DNA of 64,000 nt from positions 496,001-560,000 of the forward strand of contig JAUXTT010000017.1 of assembly GCA_030684395.1 (NCBI GenBank), in the 5' to 3' direction. Shown piece after piece: positions 2-41,468 of this stretch. A program made the position numbers and the translations under genes. How positions within the stretch are numbered: the first letter of the stretch is position 1; every line of letters begins with the position of its first letter. The DNA is from Bacteroidota bacterium (GTDB lineage: Bacteria > Bacteroidota > Bacteroidia > B-17B0 > Aurantibacillaceae). The notes beneath the pieces were generated by a model. The model made no database searches. It saw only the letters and a program-made list of their open reading frames with translations, and was not told where the DNA came from.

Positions 2-2338
2 GTATACGATGGTTCAACGTTCTCAAGGGTTGATCTGAAACTAGAACTCTACAAACAAACTGTGCTCGATATTTATTTCGACAACAGGGATAATGTTTGG
101 TTAGCAACACTAACAAGCGGTGTTATTCAATACAATACGATCGCAAAAACATTTACCCGATTGGGTGAGAATGAAGGACTAAGCAACAACCACGTAAGAA
201 GCATCATACAGGATAAAAACGGAAACTACTGGTTCGGAACTTCAGGCGGTGGTGTGTGCAATTACTTTGGAAAACAATTCACTAATTACGATAAGTCTTC
301 AGGACTTGGTGGGAATTTTATTTACAGCATTTTTCGTGATAGCAAAGAACGTCTTTGGATTGGCACGTCTGATAAGGGATTGAGTGTTTTTGATAGTGCG
401 CGATTTAGCAACTACAATTCATTAAACGGTTTTGCAGATGTAAAAGTAAAAGCCATTTGTGAAGACAACAATGGGATTGTTTATTTAGGAACCGACGGCC
501 AAGGTGTTTATACTTATGACGGCACTGAATTCAAATTGTATGAAGGCCTCGCTAAAAAACATGTTCGAGCCATTGTGAAAGACAAACATGGAAATATGTG
601 GATAGCAACAGCCGGAACAGGTTTGTATAAGTTGGATCCAAAAGAAAATAAACTCAAGAACATTACAACTAAAGATGGATTGCTTCACGATCGTTTGACT
701 TGTTTGTGGTATGATAAACAAGGCAGGCTGTGGTATGGAACTGAAAATAATGGAATTGGCTATTTGATCAATGAAGTCGTTCAGAAAAAAAACATAACGA
801 CTAAAGATGGATTAAAATCAAACACCATTCGCTCACTCACCGAAGATCAACATGGTTATTTGTGGCTTGGCAGTGCAGGAAATGGAGTTGCTTGTTTCCC
901 ATTGTATCAGGGAGATACACGTGTTACTTGTTTCGATCACACAAACGGATTGACCTCATCAAACATCTATTTATTAGTCGCAGATAATAATTCTAATATT
1001 TTTATCGGCTCAGAAACCGGATTAGATTATTTACAGTTTGATAAGGATAGAAAACTAAAAGAGATCAAACATTTTTCGAGAGGCGAAGGTTTTACAGGAA
1101 TTGAAACTTGTCAGAATTCGGTATTCAAAGACAAAGACGGAACGATTTGGTTTGGTACTATCAATGGCCTTTCCAAATATAATCCGGCAAACCTGGTTAA
1201 GAATGAGAGTGAGCCGATTACTTCCATCAGCGATGTGAAATTGTTTTACAATAGTATTTCTACAACAGCATTTAAAAACGCAGCAGGCGAATGGAATAGT
1301 ATCAAAGAGCTTGATCTTCCTTACGATCAAAACCATTTGACCTTTAATTTTTTAGGCATTAACTTCAGTAATCCCGAAGCGGTGAAGTACCAATGGAAAC
1401 TCGAAGGCTTCGATCCGAGGTGGTCGCCGGTGAGTAAAGAGAATAGCATTTTGTATTCCAATCTTAGTGCGGGCTCATATACCTTTATGGTAAAGGCCTG
1501 CAACGAAGATGGTGTTTGGAACAAAGAACCTGTGATTTTAAAAATTCGTGTTGGCGCTCCCTTCTGGAAAAGGTGGTGGTTCATTGTTTTCTCTTCTTTG
1601 CTTATCATTAGTGTTATCTTATTAGTATTTAAACGAAGAGTGAAAAGAATTACTGCCGTGGCTGCAGAACAGCAACAAAAACTTCAATTAGAAAAAGAAG
1701 TAATTGAGTTGGAGCAGAAAGCGCTTCGTTTACAAATGAATCCTCATTTTATTTTTAATGCTTTAAATTCTATCCAATCACAAATAGGAACAGACAACGA
1801 GCAGGCGGCACGGTATTATCTTGCAAAGTTCTCCAGACTGATGAGGCAGATCCTCGACAACTCAAGAAATACAGTTATTACACTGGAAGAAGAAGTGAAT
1901 ACATTAGAAAATTATTTACTGATAGAGAAATTCTGTAACGGTGATCGTTTTGATTACACAATCTCTGTTGATCCGAACATAGAAAAAGATTTTGTAAAAA
2001 TTCCACCGATGTTATTGCAACCCTTTGTAGAGAATGCTATCAAACATGGATTGAAGTATATCGATGGCAAAAGAGGAATGATAAATGTGGAGTTTAAAGA
2101 AGTAAACAATTTATTGGAATGTTCGGTAACTGATAATGGAATAGGAAGAAAAAAAGCAGAAGAGCTGAATAAAACAAGTAAAGAAACCTATCACAAATCA
2201 ACTGCCTTGTTGGTAACTCAGGAACGATTGGATATTTTACAAGCCGACAAAGAAGTTCAATCGTTGGAGATCGTTGATCTTTACGAAAACGATGAGGCGA
2301 CAGGAACAAAAGTGATAGTCAGAATCCCATTGACATAA
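2..2338 (+). CDS. Propeller-type sensor histidine kinase, LytS-like output (5' end outside window)
   Basis: Membrane sensor kinase of the two-component-regulator-propeller type. The frame is open to the left edge, so the N-terminus is missing. Visible parts in order: many Reg_prop repeats of about 40 residues (recurring GLSNN.V and W.GT..GG patterns), a Y_Y_Y domain around 1290-1550, one transmembrane helix near 1565-1630, a short coiled coil, then a His_kinase/HATPase module. The phospho-acceptor motif is QMNPHFIFNALNS, with the His codon at 1744. The N-box NAIKH and the G-box DNGIG follow. The response regulator starts 24 bases downstream, so the two are probably one operon and a cognate pair. 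The propeller presumably senses a periplasmic ligand; the ligand is unknown. No HTH domain is fused, unlike the hybrid systems of gut Bacteroides. Confidence 0.93.
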   Translation, partial: VYDGSTFSRVDLKLELYKQTVLDIYFDNRDNVWLATLTSGVIQYNTIAKTFTRLGENEGLSNNHVRSIIQDKNGNYWFGTSGGGVCNYFGKQFTNYDKSSGLGGNFIYSIFRDSKERLWIGTSDKGLSVFDSARFSNYNSLNGFADVKVKAICEDNNGIVYLGTDGQGVYTYDGTEFKLYEGLAKKHVRAIVKDKHGNMWIATAGTGLYKLDPKENKLKNITTKDGLLHDRLTCLWYDKQGRLWYGTENNGIGYLINEVVQKKNITTKDGLKSNTIRSLTEDQHGYLWLGSAGNGVACFPLYQGDTRVTCFDHTNGLTSSNIYLLVADNNSNIFIGSETGLDYLQFDKDRKLKEIKHFSRGEGFTGIETCQNSVFKDKDGTIWFGTINGLSKYNPANLVKNESEPITSISDVKLFYNSISTTAFKNAAGEWNSIKELDLPYDQNHLTFNFLGINFSNPEAVKYQWKLEGFDPRWSPVSKENSILYSNLSAGSYTFMVKACNEDGVWNKEPVILKIRVGAPFWKRWWFIVFSSLLIISVILLVFKRRVKRITAVAAEQQQKLQLEKEVIELEQKALRLQMNPHFIFNALNSIQSQIGTDNEQAARYYLAKFSRLMRQILDNSRNTVITLEEEVNTLENYLLIEKFCNGDRFDYTISVDPNIEKDFVKIPPMLLQPFVENAIKHGLKYIDGKRGMINVEFKEVNNLLECSVTDNGIGRKKAEELNKTSKETYHKSTALLVTQERLDILQADKEVQSLEIVDLYENDEATGTKVIVRIPLT

Positions 2339-2362
2339 TATTAAATAGTATTTTTACACAGC

Positions 2363-3106
2363 ATGATAAAAGCAATAATAATAGACGACATTGAACAGGC
2401 ACGAATCACTCTGAAAAAGGACCTGGAAACCTATGCAAAAGATGTACAGATCATTGGTGAAGCAAATGGTGTAGTTGCAGGCGCTAAGCTTTTAAAGTCA
2501 ATTCAACCTGATATTTTATTTCTCGATATTCAAATGCAGGACGGGAGCGGATTTGATCTGCTCGATATTTTAAAAGAAATTAATTTTAAGATCATTTTCA
2601 TTACTGCTTCGGATGCACACGCTATCAAAGCATTTCGTTATGCTGCAATTGACTATTTACTGAAGCCTGTTGATCCCGATGAGTTAACGAGTGCTTTGTC
2701 AAAATTCAAAGCAGATCAACTCAACGAAAATGAAAAATACAAATTACTCAATGAGTCGTTGAAAAGTAATAACAAACCACACGAGCGATTAGCTTTACAT
2801 ACACTGGACAAAATCCACATTGTAAACATCAATGATATTGTACGCTGCGAAAGTAGTGTGAACTATACCGAATTTTTTTTCAATGGTGGAAAAAAATTAT
2901 TAGTAACAAAAACCTTAAAAGACTTTGAAGACCTCTTAAGTGATCAGGGATTTTTCCGTGTACATCAATCACATTTGATAAATACCAAATTCATTAAAGA
3001 GTTTGTAAAAACTGACGGCGGTTATATCATCATGACCGATGGGAGTAATGTTCCCGTGTCTACAAGGAAAAGGCCTGAGGTAGTGAAGATGCTGGAGGAA
3101 TTATAG
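2363..3106 (+). CDS. LytTR-family response regulator
   Basis: DNA-binding response regulator of 247 residues. The receiver domain (about 1-120) has the acidic pair D8/D9, the phospho-acceptor D55 in FLDIQM, the conserved Thr in ITAS and the Lys in LKPVD. A LytTR DNA-binding domain fills about 140-247 (HTLDKIHIV, FFRVHQSHLIN). It lies directly behind the propeller kinase, whose LytS-type core is the usual partner of LytTR regulators, so phosphotransfer between them is a safe inference. Target genes cannot be read from the window. The palindromic repeat just after the stop separates it from the convergent alpha-2-macroglobulin gene. Confidence 0.95.
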   Translation: MIKAIIIDDIEQARITLKKDLETYAKDVQIIGEANGVVAGAKLLKSIQPDILFLDIQMQDGSGFDLLDILKEINFKIIFITASDAHAIKAFRYAAIDYLLKPVDPDELTSALSKFKADQLNENEKYKLLNESLKSNNKPHERLALHTLDKIHIVNINDIVRCESSVNYTEFFFNGGKKLLVTKTLKDFEDLLSDQGFFRVHQSHLINTKFIKEFVKTDGGYIIMTDGSNVPVSTRKRPEVVKMLEEL

Positions 3107-3227
3107 TTTCACTACTAAGACACACCTGCCCGTCCGTTCAGGCGGGGGGAACACAAAGATTCACTAAGCAAATTCTAATCTTAGTACCCTTTGTGTTCCT
3201 GAATGAACTTAGTGTCTTAGTGGTAAA
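3107..3227. repeat. Intergenic palindromic element, family I
   Basis: Imperfect inverted repeat filling the gap between two convergent genes. The left arm contains ACTAAGACAC and AACACAAAG; the right arm contains CTTTGTGTT and GTGTCTTAGTGG. A small GC-rich imperfect palindrome (CCTGCCCG/CAGGCGGG, about 3125-3147) is nested in the left arm. It may act as a terminator-like hairpin for both genes. Similar CACAGAG/CACAAAG sequence occurs near 15671 and 24585. Confidence 0.7.
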
Positions 3228-3229
3228 AA

Positions 3230-6200
3230 CTATTTAGCAGCCACAACTCCCAAATCCTTCACCACTTCCACCCACCTGCCCGGAACCCTTGCGTTGATCA
3301 TATTATCATACATTGCTTCACTGTAAACAGTTGGCAGATAAAATTTCCCAAGGTATGTTGCGTTTAGTTGGATTGTAAATATTTTGCTCGTGTTTGCCTG
3401 AAGATCATAATAACTGTAAATCCTGTCGTCTCTTATGTCCTCATAACGCGCAACACTGCTTGCGCCGGTTTCATCCATGCGTGAGTTATGAATTTCCCAA
3501 CCACTCGGAAAAATTTGATTCAATGCCATCTCTTTGAGGAATCCTTTTGTTCCCGGATTAGTAATAGTTACCACCGCCATAAAATCCATTCCCTGTTGCA
3601 GCTTGTCGGGTTGAATTTCTTTTCCCTTCATGTCAATATATTTCACCAACATGTTCAGATCTTTTGCACTTGCTGTTTTGTCCCCGATCAATGGAACACC
3701 TTCTACAATAACTTTCGCAAACAAAGTTGACTTACCATTATTCTTTACATAAAGGTTTGCCTTCTGTGCAAAATCCTGGTCGTTATATTTTAGCTGGCAC
3801 AGATTTTTTTTGCTGCTTTGATCTTTTGCACCTGCGCCATTCAAGGTATACGTGAATTTCATTTCTTTATCTAAGCCGTTTACGCCACTGTACTCGCACA
3901 TTGCTAATAATCCGTAAGCGGTTTCCTGCGTGCTCATCCAGGTATTGGAACTTAATTCTTTTGCCAGTTCTTTTGCCACAGGAGCAGCCTTCCCTTTTTC
4001 ATCCAACAGACTCAGTGTTTCTAAAATCATTGCTTTATCACGGAAATCAGAGCCGTAACTATAAGATAATTCTGTATAGGCTTTAACGCTTGTAGGCAAA
4101 CCTTCGATCAATTTTTTAGCTACTTCGTTTTGCCCAACCAGTTTATAAGCAGCAGCCAATCTCCATTTCGCAGTTACTGATAGATTTTTTTCCTCACGCA
4201 ACCTATTCATTGCTCCCATCTCTGCGTTATTACTCAATGCAAGAACAAATAAACGGTAAGCCTGAATCACTTGATTTGTTTCATTACCATGAGGATGTGT
4301 GTATGTCCCGTTATTTGAGAACCAGTTTTTTGCATGCTCCTGTTGATACTTGATCCATTTGTTTTTTAAATTCGGAGGTAAACTATAACCTTGTTTTTCC
4401 GCTTCCATAATAAAATGTCCGGCATAGTTTGTTCCCCACTCACTATCATATTCTTCTCCCGGCCAGTAAGAGAAACCTCCGTTCGCAGTTTGAAATAATT
4501 GCAAACGTTTAATCCCCGCTTTTATGTTTTTGCTAATCTTCTCTTTATCTTTTTCTTTCATCTCGATCAAATTATTTACATACAGTTGGGGAAACACAGA
4601 AGAGGTAGTTTGTTCTATACAACCATGAGGATATTGAATCAAATAATCCAAACGTTTCTCCAATCCCATACTTGGTATGTTTGACAGCTCAACTGTTGCT
4701 TTGTTCGTTCCTTCAATTCCTTTGAAAAGAATTTCGGTGTTCCATTCTTTACCGGGCTCAAGTACCATTTCAGATCCAGCAACTACTTTAGGGTTTGGTG
4801 TGCGAACATCCAGTTCAATTTCCTGTACTGCTTTCTCTTTCCCACAAGTCGCGGTGATCTTTACTTTTGCAATTCCCACTTTAGGAGCAACATTTAATTT
4901 AAAGTTGATCACTTCGTCTCCTGTTTGTTTAAAGTGCATGGTCTGTTGTTTAGTTCCATCTAATGAAAGCAACTCATTTACTTCCACCTCCACTTTTACA
5001 TCTTTCACATGCTCTTCCATTGCAAAAACATCTACAGGTAACTGAACTGTTTCACCCGGGCCAAGAACGCGGGGAAGTGTAGCCAACAACATCAATGGTT
5101 TTCTTACTGCAACTGCTTTCTCCGCATTTCCATAAGCGCCTTCTTCCTCTGCAATAACCATCACTCTAACTGATCCAACATAATTCGGAATAGCTACTAC
5201 ATGTGTTTTCTCCTGCCCCGCGTTTAGTTCAAACGGACCCATAAATTTTACCATTGGCTTAAAACGATTTGCTTTAATTCCTTTGCCTGCGTTACCGTCT
5301 CCGTCACCACCCACACTCAAGAGTTTATCAAGCTTTCCTGCGAATGCTCCAATAACCGCATCGTACATATCCCATGTTTTTACACCCAAGGCTTCTCTTG
5401 CATAAAAAGTATTCCATGGTTGTGGTGTTTTAAATCGTGTAAGGTCTAACAAACCTTCATCTACTATCGCAAGTGTGTAGGTCATTTTTCTACCGCTCTT
5501 TTCAGAAACTTTAATAGTAGTTTGCGATTCAGGTTTGATCACGTCCTGCATTTTTATTTCAGGATTCAGATGTGTTAAAGGGTCATCTACTGTTACAGGA
5601 ACCACGCCATACATACGAATCGGCAAATCGTTTTTAGTACTGGCGTGTGGTTGTATTAAAGTAACATGTATGTATGCGTTTGGCGACATATCAGCACTTG
5701 CAGCAAACTCATGAGTAGTTTCCCCCTTCTTGGTGTTGATCCAGAATTTCTTTACTACTTTGGTTCCTGTCTCCACGCTTACCAATGCCATACCGTCTGA
5801 TGGAGAAGGAAAGGATAACTTGATATTCTCATTTGTAGTATACTTTTCTTTATCGCATGAAAAGTTTAACATGTTTGCATTCTCAGTCCCACTTCTGTTT
5901 GCTCTGCTCCAATAAGGCCAATCCACATAAACTACTTTTCCAGTTTCATGTCCGCCCACAACATCCGTAACGGTAATTAAGTAACGACCATATTCCGGAT
6001 AGTTTACATTGAATTTAAAAATGCCTTTTCCTCCTTTTGTATTGATCAATGTATCTTTCATTACAATTGTGCCTGCACGAGAGATGTATTGACTCAAGTC
6101 TTCTGCATCTCTTTCATACCACCAACGCCATTGGATCTTGTAAACCTTAACCTGCAATTTATTTACGTTAGTTAATTTTCCTTTATCACTTAAAGTAACT

Positions 6201-34107: not shown

Positions 34108-34404
34108 TTGAGTAAAAAAAACATTAACTATTTATTAATCGGCGGACATATTGCGGCAGCCATATTCTTGCTGCTTATGCCCGCCGATTTGTTTGATAAT
34201 GGTCAAAGCATTTGTTTATCCCGCCTGCTTTTTGATCAGGAATGCCCGGGCTGCGGCATTACAAGGGCAATACAACACCTCATTCATTTCGATTTTAGCG
34301 CGGCGTGGCATTTCAATAAACTGAGTTTTATTGTGTTTCCTATACTGGCTTTCCTTTTTGCAAGAAATGTTTACCGCCTTTACATGAAAAGCAAAATCGT
34401 TTGA
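34108..34404 (+). CDS. DUF2752 membrane protein
   Basis: 98-residue protein of the DUF2752 family, marked by CPGCGITRA (Cys46, Cys49) between two hydrophobic helices (INYLLIGGHIAAAIFLLLM and KLSFIVFPILAFLFA). The start is a TTG three bases after the upstream stop, implying translational coupling with the YqaE-like gene. The family function is unknown; the CPxCG pair suggests metal binding or a redox role, which is inference. Confidence 0.82.
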   Translation: MSKKNINYLLIGGHIAAAIFLLLMPADLFDNGQSICLSRLLFDQECPGCGITRAIQHLIHFDFSAAWHFNKLSFIVFPILAFLFARNVYRLYMKSKIV

Positions 34405-34432
34405 TCCGGCTTTTTTAATTATATACTCAAGA

Positions 34433-34536
34433 GGTTATTGTACAACGGCACACGGATGGCTGTGATTTTTAATGTTTCTATGATTAAAAACCCTGCTTTA
34501 ATCTTAAAAGATCAGCGTCATCTGCGTTCTATAACC
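34433..34536. repeat. Intergenic palindromic element, family II
   Basis: Imperfect inverted repeat with GGTTAT at the left end, ATAACC at the right end, and inner words ACGGATGGCTGTGAT and ATCAGCGTCATCTGCGTT that are near-complementary. The right arm closely matches that of the element at 48760-48863. Confidence 0.65.
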
Positions 34537-34597
34537 CATAAATCCTTCTGTTAAAAACTCGGTAAACTTTAATTTCCCTTTATTCACAAGCTCTTCG

Positions 34598-34605
34598 TAC
34601 TTTTA
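34598..34605 (+). promoter_or_regulatory. -7 box of mutS, only 6 bases before the ATG
   Basis: TACTTTTA (one mismatch to TAnnTTTG) ends 6 bases before the start codon, so the message would have almost no 5' leader. Confidence 0.4.
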
Positions 34606-34611
34606 CCCTCT

Positions 34612-37248
34612 ATGTCGGCAGGTACCAAAAATAAGGCGGATAAACAGGAAACTCCATTGATGAAACAATTCAATGAGATCAAATCCAAATACCCGGATGC
34701 GATTTTGTTATTCAGAGTGGGCGACTTTTACGAAACCTTTGGTTCAGATGCCGTAAAAACGGCAGCAACCCTCGGCATTGTTTTAACACGCAGAGCAAAT
34801 GGCGCAGCAGCCTACATGGAGCTTGCAGGTTTTCCCTATCATTCATTGGACTCTTATTTACCACGTTTAGTTCGTGCCGGATATCGCGTTGCCGTTTGTG
34901 ATCAGTTGGAAGATCCAAAAATGACCAAAACCATTGTAAAACGTGGGGTTACCGAATTGGTTACTCCCGGTTTATCATTCAACGATAAAGTTTTAGAGAA
35001 CCGATCAAATAATTTTCTTGCCTCTCTTTATTTTAATAAAGACCAGGCAGGGGTTTCTTTTTTGGATATTTCAACCGGTGAGTTTTTAGTAGCAGAAGGA
35101 AGTTTTTCTTATGTCGAAAAATTAATCCAGAATTTTAAACCCAATGAAGTACTCTTTCAAAAAGCAAACAAAGCACAACTGAATGAACTGATAGGAGAAA
35201 AGTTTTATTCGTTCGGATTAGATGATTGGGCTTTTACTTACGATTATGGTTACGAATCATTAAACAAACATTTCGTTACCAATTCCCTGAAAGGCTTTGG
35301 TATTGAAGGAATGGAGAACGCTATTGCATCATGTGGTGCAATTTTACATTACCTCAACGAAACTAAACACGATCGTGTAAAACACATTACAACTGTTTCG
35401 CGCATTGAAGAAGAAAAGTATGTTTGGCTCGATCGTTTCACTATTCGTAACTTAGAGATCTTCGGTTCCAATCATGAAAATGGAAAATGTTTAGTGGATG
35501 TTGTTGATCATACCGTTTCCCCGATGGGGGCACGACTCCTGAAACGATGGATGGCATTGCCTTTGAAAGATATAGATCAGATCAACGAACGTTTAAGCAT
35601 TGTAGAATATTTTGTTTACGATTACGAATTGTGTGACACACTTCGTACAAAATTTGAAATGCTTGGTGACCTTGAAAGATTAATTTCAAAAGCTGCTGCG
35701 GGTAGAATAAATCCACGTGAAGTAGTTCAGTTAAAACGTTCATTGTATCTTACCGAAGAAATAATGCAAGAAGCGGGTAAGTCCGAAAACCCTGCTCTAA
35801 GAGCAACTGCAGCCAAATTAAACACCTGTGTTCCATTACGCGATCGTTTGGAAAAAGAGATCAAAGAAGATGCTCCCGTTGTTGTTGCAAAAGGAAATGT
35901 TATTTGTGATGGCGTACACGAAGAATTGGATGAACTAAGAGCCATCTCCGGTTCGGGCAAAGGATTTTTACTACAAATTCAAAACCGTGAAAGCGAGCGA
36001 ACTGGCATACCTTCTCTGAAAGTGGCGTTTAACAATGTGTTTGGCTATTATTTAGAAGTAACGAATTCACATAAAGATAAAGTTCCAAACGATTGGATCC
36101 GCAAACAAACGCTTACCAATGCGGAGCGTTACATTACACCTGAATTAAAAACCTACGAAGAAAAAATATTAGGAGCTGAAGAAAAGATCTCGGCAATTGA
36201 AATCCGTTTGTACGAAGAGCTGGTGCGTGATATGGCAGATTATATTTTGCCGATTCAACAAAATGCTGCATTAATAGCGCGTATGGATTGTTTACTTTCT
36301 TTTGCTGCATTGGCAAGAAACAACAATTATGTAAAGCCACAGTTGAACGATGGTTTTGCTTTGAATATTACGGATGGCCGCCATCCTGTTATTGAAAAAC
36401 AATTGCCTTTAGGTGAAGAGTACGTTTCCAATTCGGTTTACTTAGATAACGACACACAACAGATTATCATGATCACCGGACCTAACATGTCGGGTAAATC
36501 GGCTTTGTTGAGACAAACAGCTTTAATAGTTTTGTTAGCACAAATAGGATGTTACGTTCCTGCACAAGCTGCGGAGATTGGTATCATTGATAAGATTTTT
36601 ACACGTGTGGGCGCGAGTGATAATATCTCTTCGGGCGAATCAACCTTTATGGTGGAGATGAACGAAACAGCGAGTATTGTAAACAACCTCAGCAATCGCA
36701 GTTTGGTTTTACTGGATGAGATCGGAAGAGGAACTTCTACTTACGATGGTATTTCTATTGCCTGGGCCATTGCCGAATACATTCACGAACATCCCAAGTC
36801 GAAAGCAAAAACATTATTTGCTACACACTATCATGAGTTGAATGAAATGAGCCATTATTTTACACGCGTTAAAAATTTTAATGTAAGTGTAAAAGAGTTG
36901 AACAACAAAATCATTTTCTTACGTAAACTTGCCGAAGGTGGCAGTGAACACAGCTTTGGTATTCATGTGGCACGTATGGCGGGCATGCCCAAACAAGTGA
37001 TTGATCGTGCCAACCAAATCTTAAAAAAACTGGAACGCGAACACGAAGCAGAATTAGCCGACGGCAATACCAGTGTTGTAAAATCAAAAGACGGTGAATC
37101 GGACCTGCAATTAAGTTTCTTCCAATTAGACGATCCTATTCTGCAAAATATCCGTGAGCAAATTTTATCTACCGATATCAACACGCTCACTCCCGTAGAA
37201 GCTTTAATGAAGCTGAATGAGATTAAGAAGATGATTGGGGGGAAGTAA
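34612..37248 (+). CDS. mutS: DNA mismatch repair protein MutS
   Basis: Full-length MutS of 878 residues. The mismatch-binding motif is in [13 protein letters not shown] (Phe-x-Glu: F39, E41 region), the connector, lever and clamp domains follow, and the ATPase has Walker A GPNMSGKS (623-630), Walker [17 protein letters not shown] and ATHYHEL. The C-terminal tail ends [18 protein letters not shown]. The final 22 codons occur a second time 670 bases downstream with only synonymous changes, on the far side of a toxin-antitoxin pair (see findings). The protein itself looks intact. Confidence 0.97.
37180..37248 (+). repeat. Direct repeat, left copy (functional 3' end of mutS)
   Basis: Last 22 codons and stop of the intact mutS. 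62 of 69 bases match the right copy at 37850-37918; all seven differences are third-position or stop-codon changes. Confidence 0.9.
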
Positions 37249-37283
37249 TTTTATTTTATAGGTTTCAACAACAACTTAAAGCA

Positions 37284-37541
37284 TTACTCATATACATCCT
37301 TTCGGTGTCCTACTTTTTGTACATCTATTACACTTATTACATCATCAATCGAATAAACAACCCGGTAATCGCCTATCCTTATACGCCACAGTGGTAAATA
37401 ACTTCCTTTTAATTTTTTACAACCTTGAGGTCTTGGACTCATTGCTAACTGCAAAATAGCAGCAGTAATTGTTATTACTTGCTTTTTAGGAAGCGCCTCC
37501 AACTCTTTGGCAGCCGACTTCTTAATGGTTATCGTGTACAT
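37284..37541 (-). CDS. RelE/ParE-family toxin
   Basis: 85-residue type II toxin of the RelE/ParE fold. Features are ITIKKSAAKELEALPKK, the central KKLKGSYLPLWRIRIGDYRVVYSIDD core and the terminal VQKVGHRKDVYE; the Lys/Arg/Tyr/His set is the sort used by RelE mRNA endonucleases. It starts 1 base after the antitoxin stop, the normal antitoxin-toxin order. It lies convergent to mutS, between two copies of the mutS end. Confidence 0.92.
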   Translation of the reverse strand: MYTITIKKSAAKELEALPKKQVITITAAILQLAMSPRPQGCKKLKGSYLPLWRIRIGDYRVVYSIDDVISVIDVQKVGHRKDVYE

Positions 37542-37542
37542 T

Positions 37543-37737
37543 TTAAAGTTTACCCTTTTTCTTTAAATGAGCCATTACCTTTTCAAAAGGAAGGCTCTGC
37601 TCCTCGGAGCGTACTTCGGCAACAATAATATCCAGCATATCATCCAATTGTTCCGAATGTTTTTTAAATAGATTATAGTCAATAACAACCGCCTTCTTTT
37701 TGTTATGTTCATCCATTATATAGCTTATTCCTTTCAT
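37543..37737 (-). CDS. Antitoxin of the RelE/ParE pair
   Basis: 64-residue protein directly upstream of the toxin, one base apart. The N-terminus KKAVVIDYNLFKKH resembles Phd/YefM- or DUF-type antitoxins, with an acidic/helical C-terminus for toxin binding. The start could also be the internal Met8 (MDEHNKK). A TAAATTTG box at 37764-37771 lies upstream on the same strand. Confidence 0.85.
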   Translation of the reverse strand: MKGISYIMDEHNKKKAVVIDYNLFKKHSEQLDDMLDIIVAEVRSEEQSLPFEKVMAHLKKKGKL

Positions 37738-37763
37738 GCTCCCTTTTTAGTAGTCCTTATAAG

Positions 37764-37771
37764 CAAATTTA
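37764..37771 (-). promoter_or_regulatory. -7 box of the toxin-antitoxin operon
   Basis: TAAATTTG on the minus strand fits TAnnTTTG, 26 bases upstream of the antitoxin ATG. No TTTG at the right distance. Confidence 0.45.
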
Positions 37772-37849
37772 GTGATTTAAATTAAATTCCACTATAAGTA
37801 TTTACACTACCCTTTTTGGGCTAAAGATGATTTGCCTTCCTCTCACCTC

Positions 37850-37918
37850 AATACACTTACTCCCGTAGAAGCTTTAATGAAGCTGAACGAGATCAAGAAA
37901 ATGATTGGGGGGAAGTAG
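37850..37918 (+). pseudogene. mutS: Displaced 3' fragment of mutS (right direct repeat)
   Basis: Reads as the same 22 C-terminal MutS residues in frame, with stop TAG instead of TAA. Upstream of 37848 the similarity to mutS stops abruptly. Only synonymous differences to the functional end imply that it diverged while still coding, so it is a former mutS end left behind by an insertion or allele exchange. Confidence 0.85.
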
Positions 37919-37932
37919 TATAAAGCTCTTTA

Positions 37933-38289
37933 TCAGGATTTACTTTTCACTTTTTTTAAAAGTTCATTGTGCTCCTTCAGCAACTTATTATACTCCTCCA
38001 ATAAAGCTATATACTTCTTCTCCAAACTTTCGTAACCGGGCGAGGGCTCTTTTACACTGTGGCTTTCTGTCCCAATAGTACTATACTTCCTGAGCTCTTT
38101 TATTTCATCCGCGAAATTGTAGTTGATTATCTTCCCGATTTCTTCCATCAGCATCAAATCAATTTTAGCCTGCTGAAAAAGATTATAGATGTGCTGACGC
38201 GTATAATTTATTCGTTTGGCAAGTTTGGTAATAGGATATTCGCTCTTGCGTACCGCTGTTTCCAGTATAGAACCCATGTGTTTACTCAT
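37933..38289 (-). CDS. HTH protein with C-terminal coiled coil, paralog 1
   Basis: 118 residues. N-terminal helix-turn-helix region (LAKRINYTRQHIYNLFQQAK, about 22-45), then a polar linker, then a coiled coil (EKKYIALLEEYNKLLKEHNELLKKV) at the C-terminus. It is clearly paralogous to the protein at 38403-38750: the N-terminal 60 residues are largely shared (VRKSEYPI.KLA...YTRQH.YNLFQQ). The pair looks like DNA-binding proteins that dimerise by the coiled coil. A 16-base motif lies 24 bases upstream of the start, as for the paralog. Targets unknown. Confidence 0.85.
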   Translation of the reverse strand: MSKHMGSILETAVRKSEYPITKLAKRINYTRQHIYNLFQQAKIDLMLMEEIGKIINYNFADEIKELRKYSTIGTESHSVKEPSPGYESLEKKYIALLEEYNKLLKEHNELLKKVKSKS

Positions 38290-38312
38290 GAGTGCAAGTA
38301 ATAAACACTTTC

Positions 38313-38328
38313 GTATAATATATTTTAC
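38313..38328. promoter_or_regulatory. Shared 16-base upstream motif, copy 1
   Basis: GTATAATATATTTTAC, 14 of 16 bases identical to the motif at 38774, and at the same distance (24 bases) from its gene's start. Candidate operator or inherited promoter part. Confidence 0.5.
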
Positions 38329-38402
38329 GTTATTTTTTACAAATAAGTAAAGAAGCGCTTACGGTTGTGGAGATGGAAATTCGGGTAACAGAAATCCCGG
38401 TT

Positions 38403-38750
38403 CTATTTCCCGGTATTTTTGAGTAGTTCGGCGTATTCAGTCTGGAGCTTGCTATACTTCTCCAGCAGATCAATGTACTTTTTTTCCAGCGTTCCGTATT
38501 CGACCGAAAACTCTCCAACAGGTTCACCACTTGCATGTTTCCCATATTTCTTTAACACCTTAACCTCGTCCGAAAAATCATGCCTGATTATCTTCCCGAT
38601 TTCTTCCAGCAAAGCTATATCCACATTGGGCTGCTGAAACAGGTTATACATGTGTTGGCGTGTGTAACCTATTTGCCTCGCCAGTTTGCTAATGGGATAC
38701 TCGCTTTTCCGCACGGCATTTTCGAGAATATTGCCCAAGTGTTTTTGCAT
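38403..38750 (-). CDS. HTH protein with C-terminal coiled coil, paralog 2
   Basis: 115 residues with the same layout as its downstream neighbour: HTH-like LARQIGYTRQHMYNLFQQPN, middle helix GKIIRHDFSDEVKVLKKYG, and a C-terminal coiled coil EKKYIDLLEKYSKLQTEYAELL. The tandem arrangement with matching upstream DNA points to a local duplication. Divergence is considerable, so the duplication is not recent. The inverted repeat TTTGACA..TGTCAAA lies 46 bases upstream. Function beyond DNA binding is not inferred. Confidence 0.85.
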   Translation of the reverse strand: MQKHLGNILENAVRKSEYPISKLARQIGYTRQHMYNLFQQPNVDIALLEEIGKIIRHDFSDEVKVLKKYGKHASGEPVGEFSVEYGTLEKKYIDLLEKYSKLQTEYAELLKNTGK

Positions 38751-38773
38751 GTATGCAAGAAAAGAACTAGTTA

Positions 38774-38789
38774 GTAAAAAATATTTTAC
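38774..38789. promoter_or_regulatory. Shared 16-base upstream motif, copy 2
   Basis: GTAAAAAATATTTTAC, with arms GTAAAA/TTTTAC forming a perfect palindrome around AATA; 24 bases upstream of the paralog 2 start. Confidence 0.5.
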
Positions 38790-38795
38790 TCATTA

Positions 38796-38813
38796 TTTGA
38801 CAATTGTGTCAAA
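38796..38813. promoter_or_regulatory. Inverted repeat TTTGACA-ATTG-TGTCAAA
   Basis: Perfect 7-bp arms around 4 bases, 46 bases upstream of paralog 2. Operator-like; no equivalent was found upstream of paralog 1. The remainder of the 38751-38950 gap shows no gene. Confidence 0.45.
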
Positions 38814-38950
38814 TTATTATACATTAGCTGCTGTTTTCAGGATCCCTTAATTCTAAAATACACGGTCAAATGGACGTAAACTCATACCAATCGATGCTTG
38901 TAGCTGTTTTAAGGGCTGCTTTTAACTCACATAAAATTAGTGCCGACAGT

Positions 38951-39199
38951 TCATAGTTCTTCAAAACCCCGGGAGAAAAATTCTTTCAGGGACTTTTTGT
39001 GAAGCTTAAGGATCTTTAACAGGGAACGAAGTGTTATGTTAGAACCATTTTCTATCCGCCAGTATTGTTTGCGGTCGAGGTTATGGTCAAGTGCAAATGT
39101 TTCGTAGCTTGTATAGCCCGCTTTCACCCGTAGTTCCTTTATTTTTTCTCCCAGTTTACGGATATGTAAATCCGATATGTCGTGCTGCTTTTTAGCCAT
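38951..39199 (-). CDS. XRE-family HTH transcriptional regulator
   Basis: 82-residue regulator counted from the ATG at 39199 (MAKKQHDISDLH). A Cro/C1-type HTH covers about 15-70: LGEKIKELRVKAGYTSYETFALDHNLDRKQYWRIENG. A longer frame runs into the divergent gene's leader and codes for an unlikely Cys-rich start, so I reject it. It is divergent from the S74/T9SS fibre gene with 94 bases between, which hold a two-part inverted repeat (39201-39253). It may control itself and the surface cluster. Confidence 0.87.
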   Translation of the reverse strand: MAKKQHDISDLHIRKLGEKIKELRVKAGYTSYETFALDHNLDRKQYWRIENGSNITLRSLLKILKLHKKSLKEFFSRGFEEL

Positions 39200-39200
39200 T

Positions 39201-39253
39201 TGCAATCGTAAATGTTCAATAAAAGCCCGGCAATATTTACGGCATATATTGCA
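39201..39253. promoter_or_regulatory. Two-part inverted repeat in a divergent intergenic region
   Basis: TGCAAT and CGTAAAT on the left are matched by ATTTACG and ATTGCA on the right. It lies between the XRE gene and the fibre gene, where an autoregulatory operator would be expected. Confidence 0.4.
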
Positions 39254-39293
39254 CAATTCATTTTTTTTAATTACATTTATAATAGAACAGGTA

Positions 39294-41468
39294 ATGATCT
39301 CATCTAAAAAACTGATGGTTCTTTTAACAGCCATAACAACAATTAATTCCATTAACGCTCAGATAAAAGTATTTACGGGAGGCAACACTATTGTTGGCTC
39401 CACCAGCAGCCCTGTTTCGGGAGCAAAACTACAGGTTGCCGGAACAAGCATTTTTACAACAGCTACCGGAACAGTAACACCCACTTCGGCGGCTTATATT
39501 CCTTCTGTAAACGCTTACTCCTCGGCTTCAACTCCTGACTATACATGGAGCGGCAATATTACTACCGGATTATTTCATCCTGCCAGTAATGTGTTGGGAT
39601 TTACCACTAACGGCACAGAGAGAATGCGTGTCCACTCCAATGGTTGTGTTGGAATTGGAACTACAAGTCCGCAAGAGTTTTTTCAATTAGGCGACCGCTT
39701 TACATTTCACAACGGCGCCACAAAATACTTAGGTTACAATTCTTATTATGATGCGGGGGCATCAACCAATAAACGGTTGGTTGCTGATTATGCATCTTCC
39801 ATTGCTTTTGGAAGTGGCGATATTTATTTTAACATTGCAGCAAGCAGCACTGCCGGCAGCTCAATTACCTTTACTGATGCGTTGCATATAAAGAACGATG
39901 GGAAAATAGGAATTGACAATGCTTATCCTGGTTATAAATTAGATGTTGCCAACGGAGATGTTAACATTCCTTCTTCTACCAGTTATGGTTATCGTGTTGG
40001 GGGTAATATAATATTGACTCAGAGAAACATTACATCAAGCCTGTTTGTTGGTAACGGGTCAGGTAACTCTACCACAGCTTCTAATAATACTGCTGTTGGT
40101 TACAAGGCTCTTTATACTGCTACTTCTGCTACACCAAACAATGCTTTTGGGGCCTATGCTTTGTATAATAACACTACAGGTTATTTTAATTTGGCTATGG
40201 GTGACAGTGCAATGTACTCTACAACAACCGGATTAGGAAATGTGGCTATTGGCTCTTATTCTATGCGGAAAAACACAACCGCTTCCAATAATACAGCTGT
40301 GGGAGGAAAAACAATGTATGCTAATACAACTGGCGTTGGTAATGCTGCTTTTGGCTGGGCAACTCTTACATCAAATACTACAGGGGCCAACTCTTCAGCA
40401 TACGGCTATCAATCTCTTTTTTACAATACTACCGGTAATAATAACTCTGCAATTGGATTTAAGTCACTATTTAACAATACCACTGGCTCTGATAACACTG
40501 CCCTGGGAGTTAACACTGGATTGACCTGTGTTACCGGTTCTTACAATACATTTGTTGGCGAATATGCAGACGCAGGGGGCAACAATTACCAAAACGCTAC
40601 CGCTGTAGGTTATGGTGCAGTAGTTTCTGCAAGCAATAAAATCAGAATAGGGAATGCCTCTGTTACTGAAATTGCAGGACAGGTTGGCTGGACTACTCTT
40701 TCTGATTCACGTTTTAAAACCGATGTGCAGGAAAATGTAAAAGGCTTGGAGTTCATTAAAAAACTAAGGCCCGTTACATATAAAGTGAATACTGCTCAGC
40801 TAGACGATTACCTGATTCAAAACATGCCCGATAGTGTTAAGCTAATGCACAAAGCAGGGATGAGTTTTACAGTCTCTTCGGCTACTATTCACTCCGGCTT
40901 TCTTGCCCAGGAAGTGGAACTAGCCGCACAACAGGTGGGATATACAAACACAATTGTAAGTGCGCCGGCTAACGAAAATGATGTATACGGAATTGCCTAT
41001 GGTGAATTAGTAGTTCCACTGGTAAAAGCAATGCAGGAACAAAATGCGCAGGTTGACAGCCTTATAAAAACCACGCACAAACTGGATTCAGTAAACAGTG
41101 TATTGCAAAATCAATTAAACGATGTGGTAAACAACTGCTGTCAGACCAAAGCCGGTGCAGGAACCCTTAATCGATCAGGCATCCAACCAGAAACCTCTAA
41201 CCAGGAACAGGTTAACTGGCTTGCCCAAAATAAACCCAACCCGTTCAATAAAGAAACAACGATTGAATACAATGTAATACAAGAAGGAAAAGGTAGTATT
41301 ATGATTTTTGATATGAATGGGAAATTATTAAAAACAATTCCTGTGAAAATTCCCGGAAAAGGAAGCATAATCATTAATGGCAACGATTTTATTGCAGGCA
41401 TATATTACTACAGTTTGGTGGTAAATGATGTGGAGGTGGATACCAAGAAAATGATTTTAACGGAGTAG
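39294..41468 (+). CDS. Trimeric fibre-like protein with S74 self-cleaving chaperone domain and T9SS tail
   Basis: 724 residues from the ATG at 39294, which begins a proper signal peptide (cleavage after INA). Order of parts: a beta-rich region; YadA-head-like repeats, about residues 255-425 (N.A.G..A...NTTG..N.A.G); a Peptidase_S74 domain from about 465 with S470-D-S-R-F-K475, the spacing of the Ser/Lys pair of phage endosialidase chaperones; a coiled coil near 580-610; and a type A T9SS sorting domain (NKPNPFNKETTIEY to MILTE). The S74 domain normally trimerises a fibre and cuts itself off. First gene of a same-strand cluster to 47551. Confidence 0.9.
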   Translation: MISSKKLMVLLTAITTINSINAQIKVFTGGNTIVGSTSSPVSGAKLQVAGTSIFTTATGTVTPTSAAYIPSVNAYSSASTPDYTWSGNITTGLFHPASNVLGFTTNGTERMRVHSNGCVGIGTTSPQEFFQLGDRFTFHNGATKYLGYNSYYDAGASTNKRLVADYASSIAFGSGDIYFNIAASSTAGSSITFTDALHIKNDGKIGIDNAYPGYKLDVANGDVNIPSSTSYGYRVGGNIILTQRNITSSLFVGNGSGNSTTASNNTAVGYKALYTATSATPNNAFGAYALYNNTTGYFNLAMGDSAMYSTTTGLGNVAIGSYSMRKNTTASNNTAVGGKTMYANTTGVGNAAFGWATLTSNTTGANSSAYGYQSLFYNTTGNNNSAIGFKSLFNNTTGSDNTALGVNTGLTCVTGSYNTFVGEYADAGGNNYQNATAVGYGAVVSASNKIRIGNASVTEIAGQVGWTTLSDSRFKTDVQENVKGLEFIKKLRPVTYKVNTAQLDDYLIQNMPDSVKLMHKAGMSFTVSSATIHSGFLAQEVELAAQQVGYTNTIVSAPANENDVYGIAYGELVVPLVKAMQEQNAQVDSLIKTTHKLDSVNSVLQNQLNDVVNNCCQTKAGAGTLNRSGIQPETSNQEQVNWLAQNKPNPFNKETTIEYNVIQEGKGSIMIFDMNGKLLKTIPVKIPGKGSIIINGNDFIAGIYYYSLVVNDVEVDTKKMILTE

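Follow-up and report, generated by a model that had tools for sequence, protein, structure and literature searches.

Long target duplications of variable length have been described at the insertion sites of restriction-modification genes (Nobusato et al. 2000, Gene 259:99, as cited in PMC3874152, PMC1643837 and PMC2654758), and homology-facilitated illegitimate recombination has been proposed for the displaced effector 3' ends and the immunity-gene arrays of the Vibrio type VI secretion system (T6SS) and for Rhs loci (PMC5361080). Products of homology-facilitated illegitimate recombination are generally short of ~1 kb of host sequence, and the fate of linear DNA in E. coli is either degradation or ligation followed by integration through a single crossover (PMC3240628). 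In Neisseria, the minimal mobile elements of Saunders and Snyder (2002) consist of entire genes that sit as cassettes between conserved neighbours and are incorporated through homologous recombination (described in PMC3082526). Here we describe a stretch of 64,000 nucleotides from a Bacteroidota genome (the window), in which a predicted toxin-antitoxin pair lies between the functional 3' end of mutS and a displaced second copy of that end. By what means solitary chromosomal toxin-antitoxin pairs arrive at new sites in the absence of mobility genes is, to our knowledge, still an open question, and our searches of the open-licence literature brought up no report of such pairs between displaced host-gene ends. 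Our analysis suggests that these pairs settle behind genes by recombination with relatives' DNA and not by mobility enzymes of their own.

In the window, mutS (34612..37248, + strand) is intact and encodes 878 amino acids (aa; NCBIfam mutS1, E 1e-271), and its last codons and stop recur at 37850-37918, both as a preliminary description of this DNA had reported. The repeat spans 70 nt at 91% identity (37178-37247 versus 37848-37917, spaced 670) and is non-random (blastn E 2.5e-19, contig compared with itself), and direct repeats of the target lie on both sides of an insert. The left copy (37178..37248, + strand) is the functional mutS end with its TAA stop, and the right copy (37848..37918, + strand) is a displaced mutS end of 22 codons followed by TAG. 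Likeness between the copies breaks off near 37848 on the left, where similarity to mutS had been said to end abruptly, and at the stop codon on the right; only 2 shared bases lie directly 5' of the 69-base copy at the far joint.

The segment between the copies (37249..37847; 599 bp, G+C content 0.346 versus 0.373 for the window) carries a ParE/RelE-type toxin gene (85 aa; 37284..37541, - strand) whose product scores 43.2 bits against PF05016 (E 6e-11, cut-off 23) and matches TIGR02385 (E 2e-7), the nearest solved chain being 2khe (E 5e-7). One nt upstream on the same strand lies a gene for a RelB-like antitoxin (64 aa; 37543..37737, - strand) that matches PF18506 at E 7e-5, which is under the family cut-off; a relative of it in genome G455 exceeds that cut-off, and comparable pairs are present in G455, G016 and other genomes. 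Both genes are antisense to mutS, and together (37284-37737) they are predicted to form a type II toxin-antitoxin module with a ParE/RelE toxin, in line with the original assignment. Also as described before, there is no integrase between the copies, where toxin and antitoxin are the sole open reading frames (ORFs) of at least 60 aa. The window lies inside a 666-kb contig of a 4.87-Mb genome and contains no N. ARAGORN found no tRNA in the window, Rfam gave no match at gathering thresholds across 34400-39500, and a scan for sigma-70 promoters returned 3 sites against 2.9 expected in shuffles.

On recount, the two copies differ at 7 of 69 bases, comprising 6 synonymous third positions and the TAA/TAG difference (i.e., 6 of the 22 codons before the stop differ, all synonymously). 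For duplication in place with free drift, with all changes placed in the unconstrained copy (20000 draws), the probability of no amino-acid change was 5e-5 (1/20000 draws); under a milder null, in which synonymous changes are allowed on the constrained copy too, it was 0.0035. Neutral duplication in place is thus unlikely at mutS because amino-acid changes are expected and none is seen. The earlier argument from synonymous-only divergence against a simple duplication therefore holds, and the repeats do not behave as duplicates of one target. Left and right ends differ at 6 of 66 bases, with 29 identical bases in the middle of the repeat, and each differs at 12 from either G001 or G002, the only congeners compared (both separate species; G002 is 66% complete). 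Because the two ends are closer to each other than to the congeners and differ only synonymously, they look like two alleles brought together, most likely independent functional alleles that had reached about sister-lineage divergence before being joined. The idea that one mutS end had arrived from a relative gains from this to the extent that independent alleles are likely; being equally far from the congeners, neither end stands out as the native one.

The same scar is present behind other genes of this genome. In a scan of 1.19 Mb (738 ORFs of at least 150 aa) we accepted seven displaced ends besides that of mutS, naming genes that lack a Pfam hit by reading their sequence. A dnaE-like gene is followed by a Fic-like gene, named by motif and without a Pfam hit in its first 130 aa; atpG (whose copies differ once in 17 codons) by a BRO-N gene (PF02498); an aldehyde dehydrogenase gene, the displaced end of which was detected at the protein level only, by a DUF4143 ATPase gene; and ftsY by a decayed ParE toxin (residues 32-85) of the same family as the window toxin. 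The inserts behind the remaining three are a gene for a 187-aa lipoprotein-like protein (CaiB-like gene), one for a 671-aa protein (helicase-like gene, copy 97.7% identical over 43 bp) and, where the displaced end is that of a gene encoding a 697-aa protein, HigB, HigA and a 134-aa gene. Homology in the CaiB-like case is not tied to the stop codon, since the repeat passes it by 17 bases and enters the beginning of the following gene. The displaced copies of the dnaE-like gene, ftsY and the C18 gene are decayed and contain stops or have lost their reading frame. DUF4143 genes as a class lie between displaced ends in 1 of 13 cases in this genome. Rows dropped from this genome were C31:240415 (tandem small-protein family), C7:177 (weak, 74.6%), C37:152547 (42.5%, protein level) and C19:1063 (tandem repeats), and G001 row 105095 (304 bp, 68%) was dropped as well.

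We searched 395 genomes of the class with a profile of the MutS C-terminus; 369 had a match at E 0.01, 9 had two matches, and in 4 (this genome, G110, G171 and G214) a second mutS end lay within 1.5 kb of mutS. The search for mutS followed by toxin-antitoxin genes and a second mutS end that had been proposed at the outset thus recovered G110, from another family, in which mutS is separated from a second end ~0.8 kb on by a RelE-type toxin (PF06296, E 1e-7) and a small gene that has no Pfam match; its remnant of 45 codons is the longest among the four. In G171 an AAA_14/DUF4143 ATPase gene lies between the ends, and in G214 the spacer is short and the second end is older, with amino-acid changes. 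Two ends occur only in this genome within its order (1/87; 75 with a match) and only in G171 within that family (1/16; 15 with a match). In G171 mutS was the sole accepted case in 410 kb (281 ORFs, including 10 kb around mutS), one weak row (C12:129295, 68%) having been dropped. We rejected G204 (a near-identical 321-bp duplicate at a contig edge), G426 (an N gap inside mutS) and G046, G063, G290 and G320 (weak second matches, E 0.002-0.008). Apart from the G204 contig edge and these four weak matches, no second end far from mutS was found in the 395 genomes, and we therefore rejected large integrated elements at mutS. The arrangement had been called unusual; its recurrence in this genome and in several other families speaks otherwise.

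The toxin has relatives in 14 of the 87 genomes from the order (E 1e-12) and in 16 of the 395 from the class (E 1e-20), and both counts include this genome; those on plasmids (12 records) and phages (75 records) are all below 60% identity. Of 33 toxin loci, 9 are flanked on both sides within 1.5 kb by direct repeats 45 bp or longer (E 1e-8 or better), compared with 43 of 1000 random control windows drawn from three genomes and not from each toxin's own (p 1.6e-5); an earlier control sample gave 34 of 900. The scar is frequent among toxin loci, not universal. By reading, five brackets are gene 3' ends (L292, L293, L319, L320 and L321). The genes bracketing toxin loci in this way are mutS in this genome, a gene for a 219-aa protein (G102), hemH (ferrochelatase, PF00762; G455, L293), where the repeat falls 21 bases short of the stop codon and one stop interrupts the toxin frame, a thiL-like gene (AIRS_C; G080) that has two inserts and as many displaced ends, and an AMP-binding acs-like gene (G186) with a repeat of 182 bp at 87%. 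In G455, hemH is followed in turn by the pair, a hemH end, a PIN gene and its small partner, and a third hemH end, and the hemH and thiL-like stacks point to repeated entry at one address. An automatic 3'-end rule, which includes L299 (judged a non-coding repeat) and misses L293 (hemH), found 5 of 33 toxin loci versus 1 of 1000 controls (p 1.4e-7), or 4 of 31 versus 1 of 600 without the own genome.

Constrained divergence extends to several of these cases. Counts of synonymous and non-synonymous codons, with milder-null probabilities, were 6/0 for mutS here (0.0035), 7/0 for the CaiB-like gene (0.002), 9/2 for the aldehyde dehydrogenase gene (0.004) and 5/0 for mutS in G171 (0.01). The acs-like end had 17 synonymous and 5 other codons (0.0015), and the hemH end 11 and 6 (0.015). 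Structure, recurrence and, in these cases, constraint on the ends are thus matters of observation.

What would produce such a scar? The reading we favour, at a probability of roughly 0.6, is that a relative's gene end and the cassette behind it were captured together, with a homology anchor in the gene and a homology-free far joint; the shared anchor, the arbitrary far joint, the intact gene and the stacking argue for it. Incoming DNA from a close relative would carry a mutS 3' end plus the toxin-antitoxin pair, homologous recombination in the mutS end would anchor the fragment and keep MutS whole, and the far side would be joined without homology, so that a scar made of the last 22 codons from another mutS allele would remain 600 bp away. 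The fragment may have been ligated to a circle and integrated by one crossover in the mutS end (insertion-duplication) with host DNA kept, or a linear fragment may have entered by homology-facilitated illegitimate recombination, its illegitimate joint falling just within the gene that supplied the homology. We slightly favour the circle because a single crossover would then leave the gene whole, followed by the cassette and part of a second end, without any loss of sequence; that crossover would fall within the 29 identical bases in mid-repeat. That a mutS remnant was retained likewise suggests that mutS itself lost little host sequence, if any. The process would not be special to mutS: insertions may survive best behind 3' ends, where the gene stays intact and retains its promoter, and toxin-antitoxin-like cargo is possibly kept because it resists loss. 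How the DNA recombined, in which direction it was exchanged and why it was kept are inferences from the arrangement and divergence of these ends. The account of Vibrio T6SS and Rhs loci (PMC5361080) likewise describes a homologous anchor in the gene, an old 3' end downstream and stacking, but here the housekeeping gene is unrelated to the cargo, the toxin-antitoxin pair stands alone and no host deletion is visible.

Several observations weigh against capture from a relative. The ~1-kb host deletion of published homology-facilitated illegitimate products is not visible here, and the genomes compared include no strain-level empty site or donor. Atop this, 24 of the 33 toxin loci lack a bracket as defined above, and the ends of atpG, the helicase-like gene, ftsY, the C18 gene, the thiL-like gene and the G102 gene give no case against neutral duplication. 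A scan of 507 kb of G001 (325 ORFs) yielded 0 accepted displaced ends, so the scar may not be a general background process. Finally, the survival argument predicts a bias to 3' ends, and our counts hint at such a bias without establishing it. Under a looser rule (this genome plus 107 kb of G001), 10 rows were 3' ends copied downstream and 10 were 5' starts copied upstream; by locus in this genome these were 9 and 4, five 5' rows being one repeat at the edge of contig C5. At the protein level, 8 loci in this genome had the C-terminus copied downstream and 4 the N-terminus copied upstream (8 rows each), and a further scan gave 8 rows and 3 in this genome. The 5' loci C31:299542, C14:14226, C20:4881 and C19 were tentatively judged to be truncated paralogues or repeats from their ORFs or match lists.

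An alternative is that the insertion itself copied ~70 bp of mutS and that the copies diverged later, as in a long target duplication. The architecture is the one described for restriction-modification genes (~100-bp variable direct repeats, addiction-type genes and no mobility gene; PMC3874152), and the atpG and helicase-like copies fit recent duplication. Here, by contrast, the genes are toxin-antitoxin, Fic-like and DUF4143 genes in Bacteroidia, positioned at gene 3' ends, and the copies in several cases (mutS, CaiB-like, aldehyde dehydrogenase, G171 mutS and acs-like) differ purely or mostly synonymously and so are not simple target duplicates; we consider this origin unlikely at mutS. Elements that restore a gene 3' end on entry, such as e14 in icd, bring a replacement end with mostly synonymous changes and displace the native end, and in these two respects the mutS locus resembles them. 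Site-specific elements had been brought up for mutS from the start. An element of this kind, with its integrase acting in trans or the element now a remnant, is disfavoured because remnants vary from ~10 to 59 codons, the targets are many and unrelated, no exact shared core was found and the inserts examined, some but not all of whose ORFs were searched, showed no recognisable integrase. For the core, no exact k-mer was common to 12 repeat segments beyond composition shuffles, a test that covers exact cores only. Moreover, second mutS ends differ in length and adjoin mutS, with the exceptions noted above. We accordingly rejected a mutS-specific attachment site, as other genes carry the scar and share no core, and hold site-specific use of mutS to be improbable.

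The same end state could also be reached from a tandem duplication or merodiploid with a diverged donor copy of the whole mutS, later deleted to its last 22 codons, and transformation can produce merodiploids (PMC3784515). This route would require independent deletions at many loci, each leaving only ~10-59 codons, and at mutS no remnant longer than the 45 codons of G110 was found; it too strikes us as improbable. Least credible is that strain haplotypes were joined in assembly. Synonymous differences do resemble strain variants, and one of the nine two-match genomes (G204) is a contig-edge case, but the window and the loci of the cases checked are free of N, some copies are decayed, and cases occur in separate genomes (G110, G171, G186 and G455).

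Comparison with the congeners, suggested earlier as a check, was only partly informative. G001 and G002 each have a single mutS end and, at E 1e-12, no toxin of this kind (G002 being incomplete), which is in keeping with the earlier proposal; the gene order around mutS differs in both, such that neither provides a clean empty site, and atpG in G001 has a single end but a different flank. Among 118 loci of other genomes (80 + 29 + 9 from three samplings, with some genomes counted twice), 117 had one mutS end, 1 had none and 0 had two by the score used. Downstream of the displaced end, all on the - strand, lie genes for a 118-aa protein with no Pfam match above cut-off (37933..38289), a 115-aa protein with a weak HTH_26 match (38403..38750; E 0.03, below cut-off) and a 133-aa HTH-type regulator (38951..39352; HTH_3 E 1.5e-4, just below cut-off). 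The first two are tandem paralogues (37933-38750, 60%) present within the genome at this site only. G001 has relatives of the 37933-39352 genes upstream of mutS and in the same orientation as mutS, with a GH16-type gene and glmS beyond them, and in G002 a PepSY-like gene follows mutS. Proximity of the flanking genes to mutS is thus common to this genome and G001, and their orientation is not. Minimal mobile elements share with our locus the small cassette beside conserved genes and, on our reading, homologous incorporation, but they are defined by conserved genes on both sides, and the description consulted (PMC3082526) has no displaced end; here the mutS flanks differ among three separate species (this genome, G001 and G002).

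Some further features were seen at the loci read. In G110 (L167, 3474-5271), a 256-aa gene without a Pfam hit and an AbiEii-type nucleotidyltransferase gene (PF08843) lie behind the displaced end. The rejected G426 locus (L160, 2259-3813) has an ORF convergent to mutS that looks by eye like a large serine recombinase (2259-3749; naming unconfirmed) and, between the two, a tRNA-like stretch unconfirmed by tRNA search; if real, the recombinase would speak for a site-specific element. The third hemH end of G455 is at 3223-3255 of L293, after the PIN-domain (VapC-like) gene and its small partner. Toxin loci L299, L315 and L316 lie between non-coding repeats, not gene ends, and L295 is ambiguous. 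In this genome, at least 5 of the 13 AAA_14/DUF4143 ATPase genes (L239, L243, L244, L245 and L246) are bracketed, just before the start and after the stop, by imperfect palindromes of 34-45 bp identified by eye, 82-90% identical to one another, with arms in L244 that vary between copies in matched fashion; such a gene with its brackets looks like a putative palindrome-ended single-gene unit. At C31:164946-172857, convergent aldehyde dehydrogenase and dnaE-like genes, each with a displaced end, surround one 296-aa gene, the DUF4143 ATPase gene and the Fic-like gene, and this region is possibly a single captured fragment with two gene ends.

Probable capture of a relative's gene end would place the mutS case among known systems without matching any one of them. 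Beyond the differences from e14-type elements (no recognised integrase, no shared core, many targets), it mixes features of long target duplication and of minimal mobile elements and adds constrained divergence of the ends. A bolder extension, which we think unlikely, is that stand-alone toxin-antitoxin pairs and similar single-gene cargo in Bacteroidia are integrase-free mobile cassettes, which would use a host-gene 3' end as their only homology tag, loop out between ends, re-enter the same end in relatives by one crossover, and stack. The type of divergence between two ends helps to separate capture from a relative from duplication in place, and the displaced gene end is a readable scar of toxin-antitoxin entry that can be counted in any genome.

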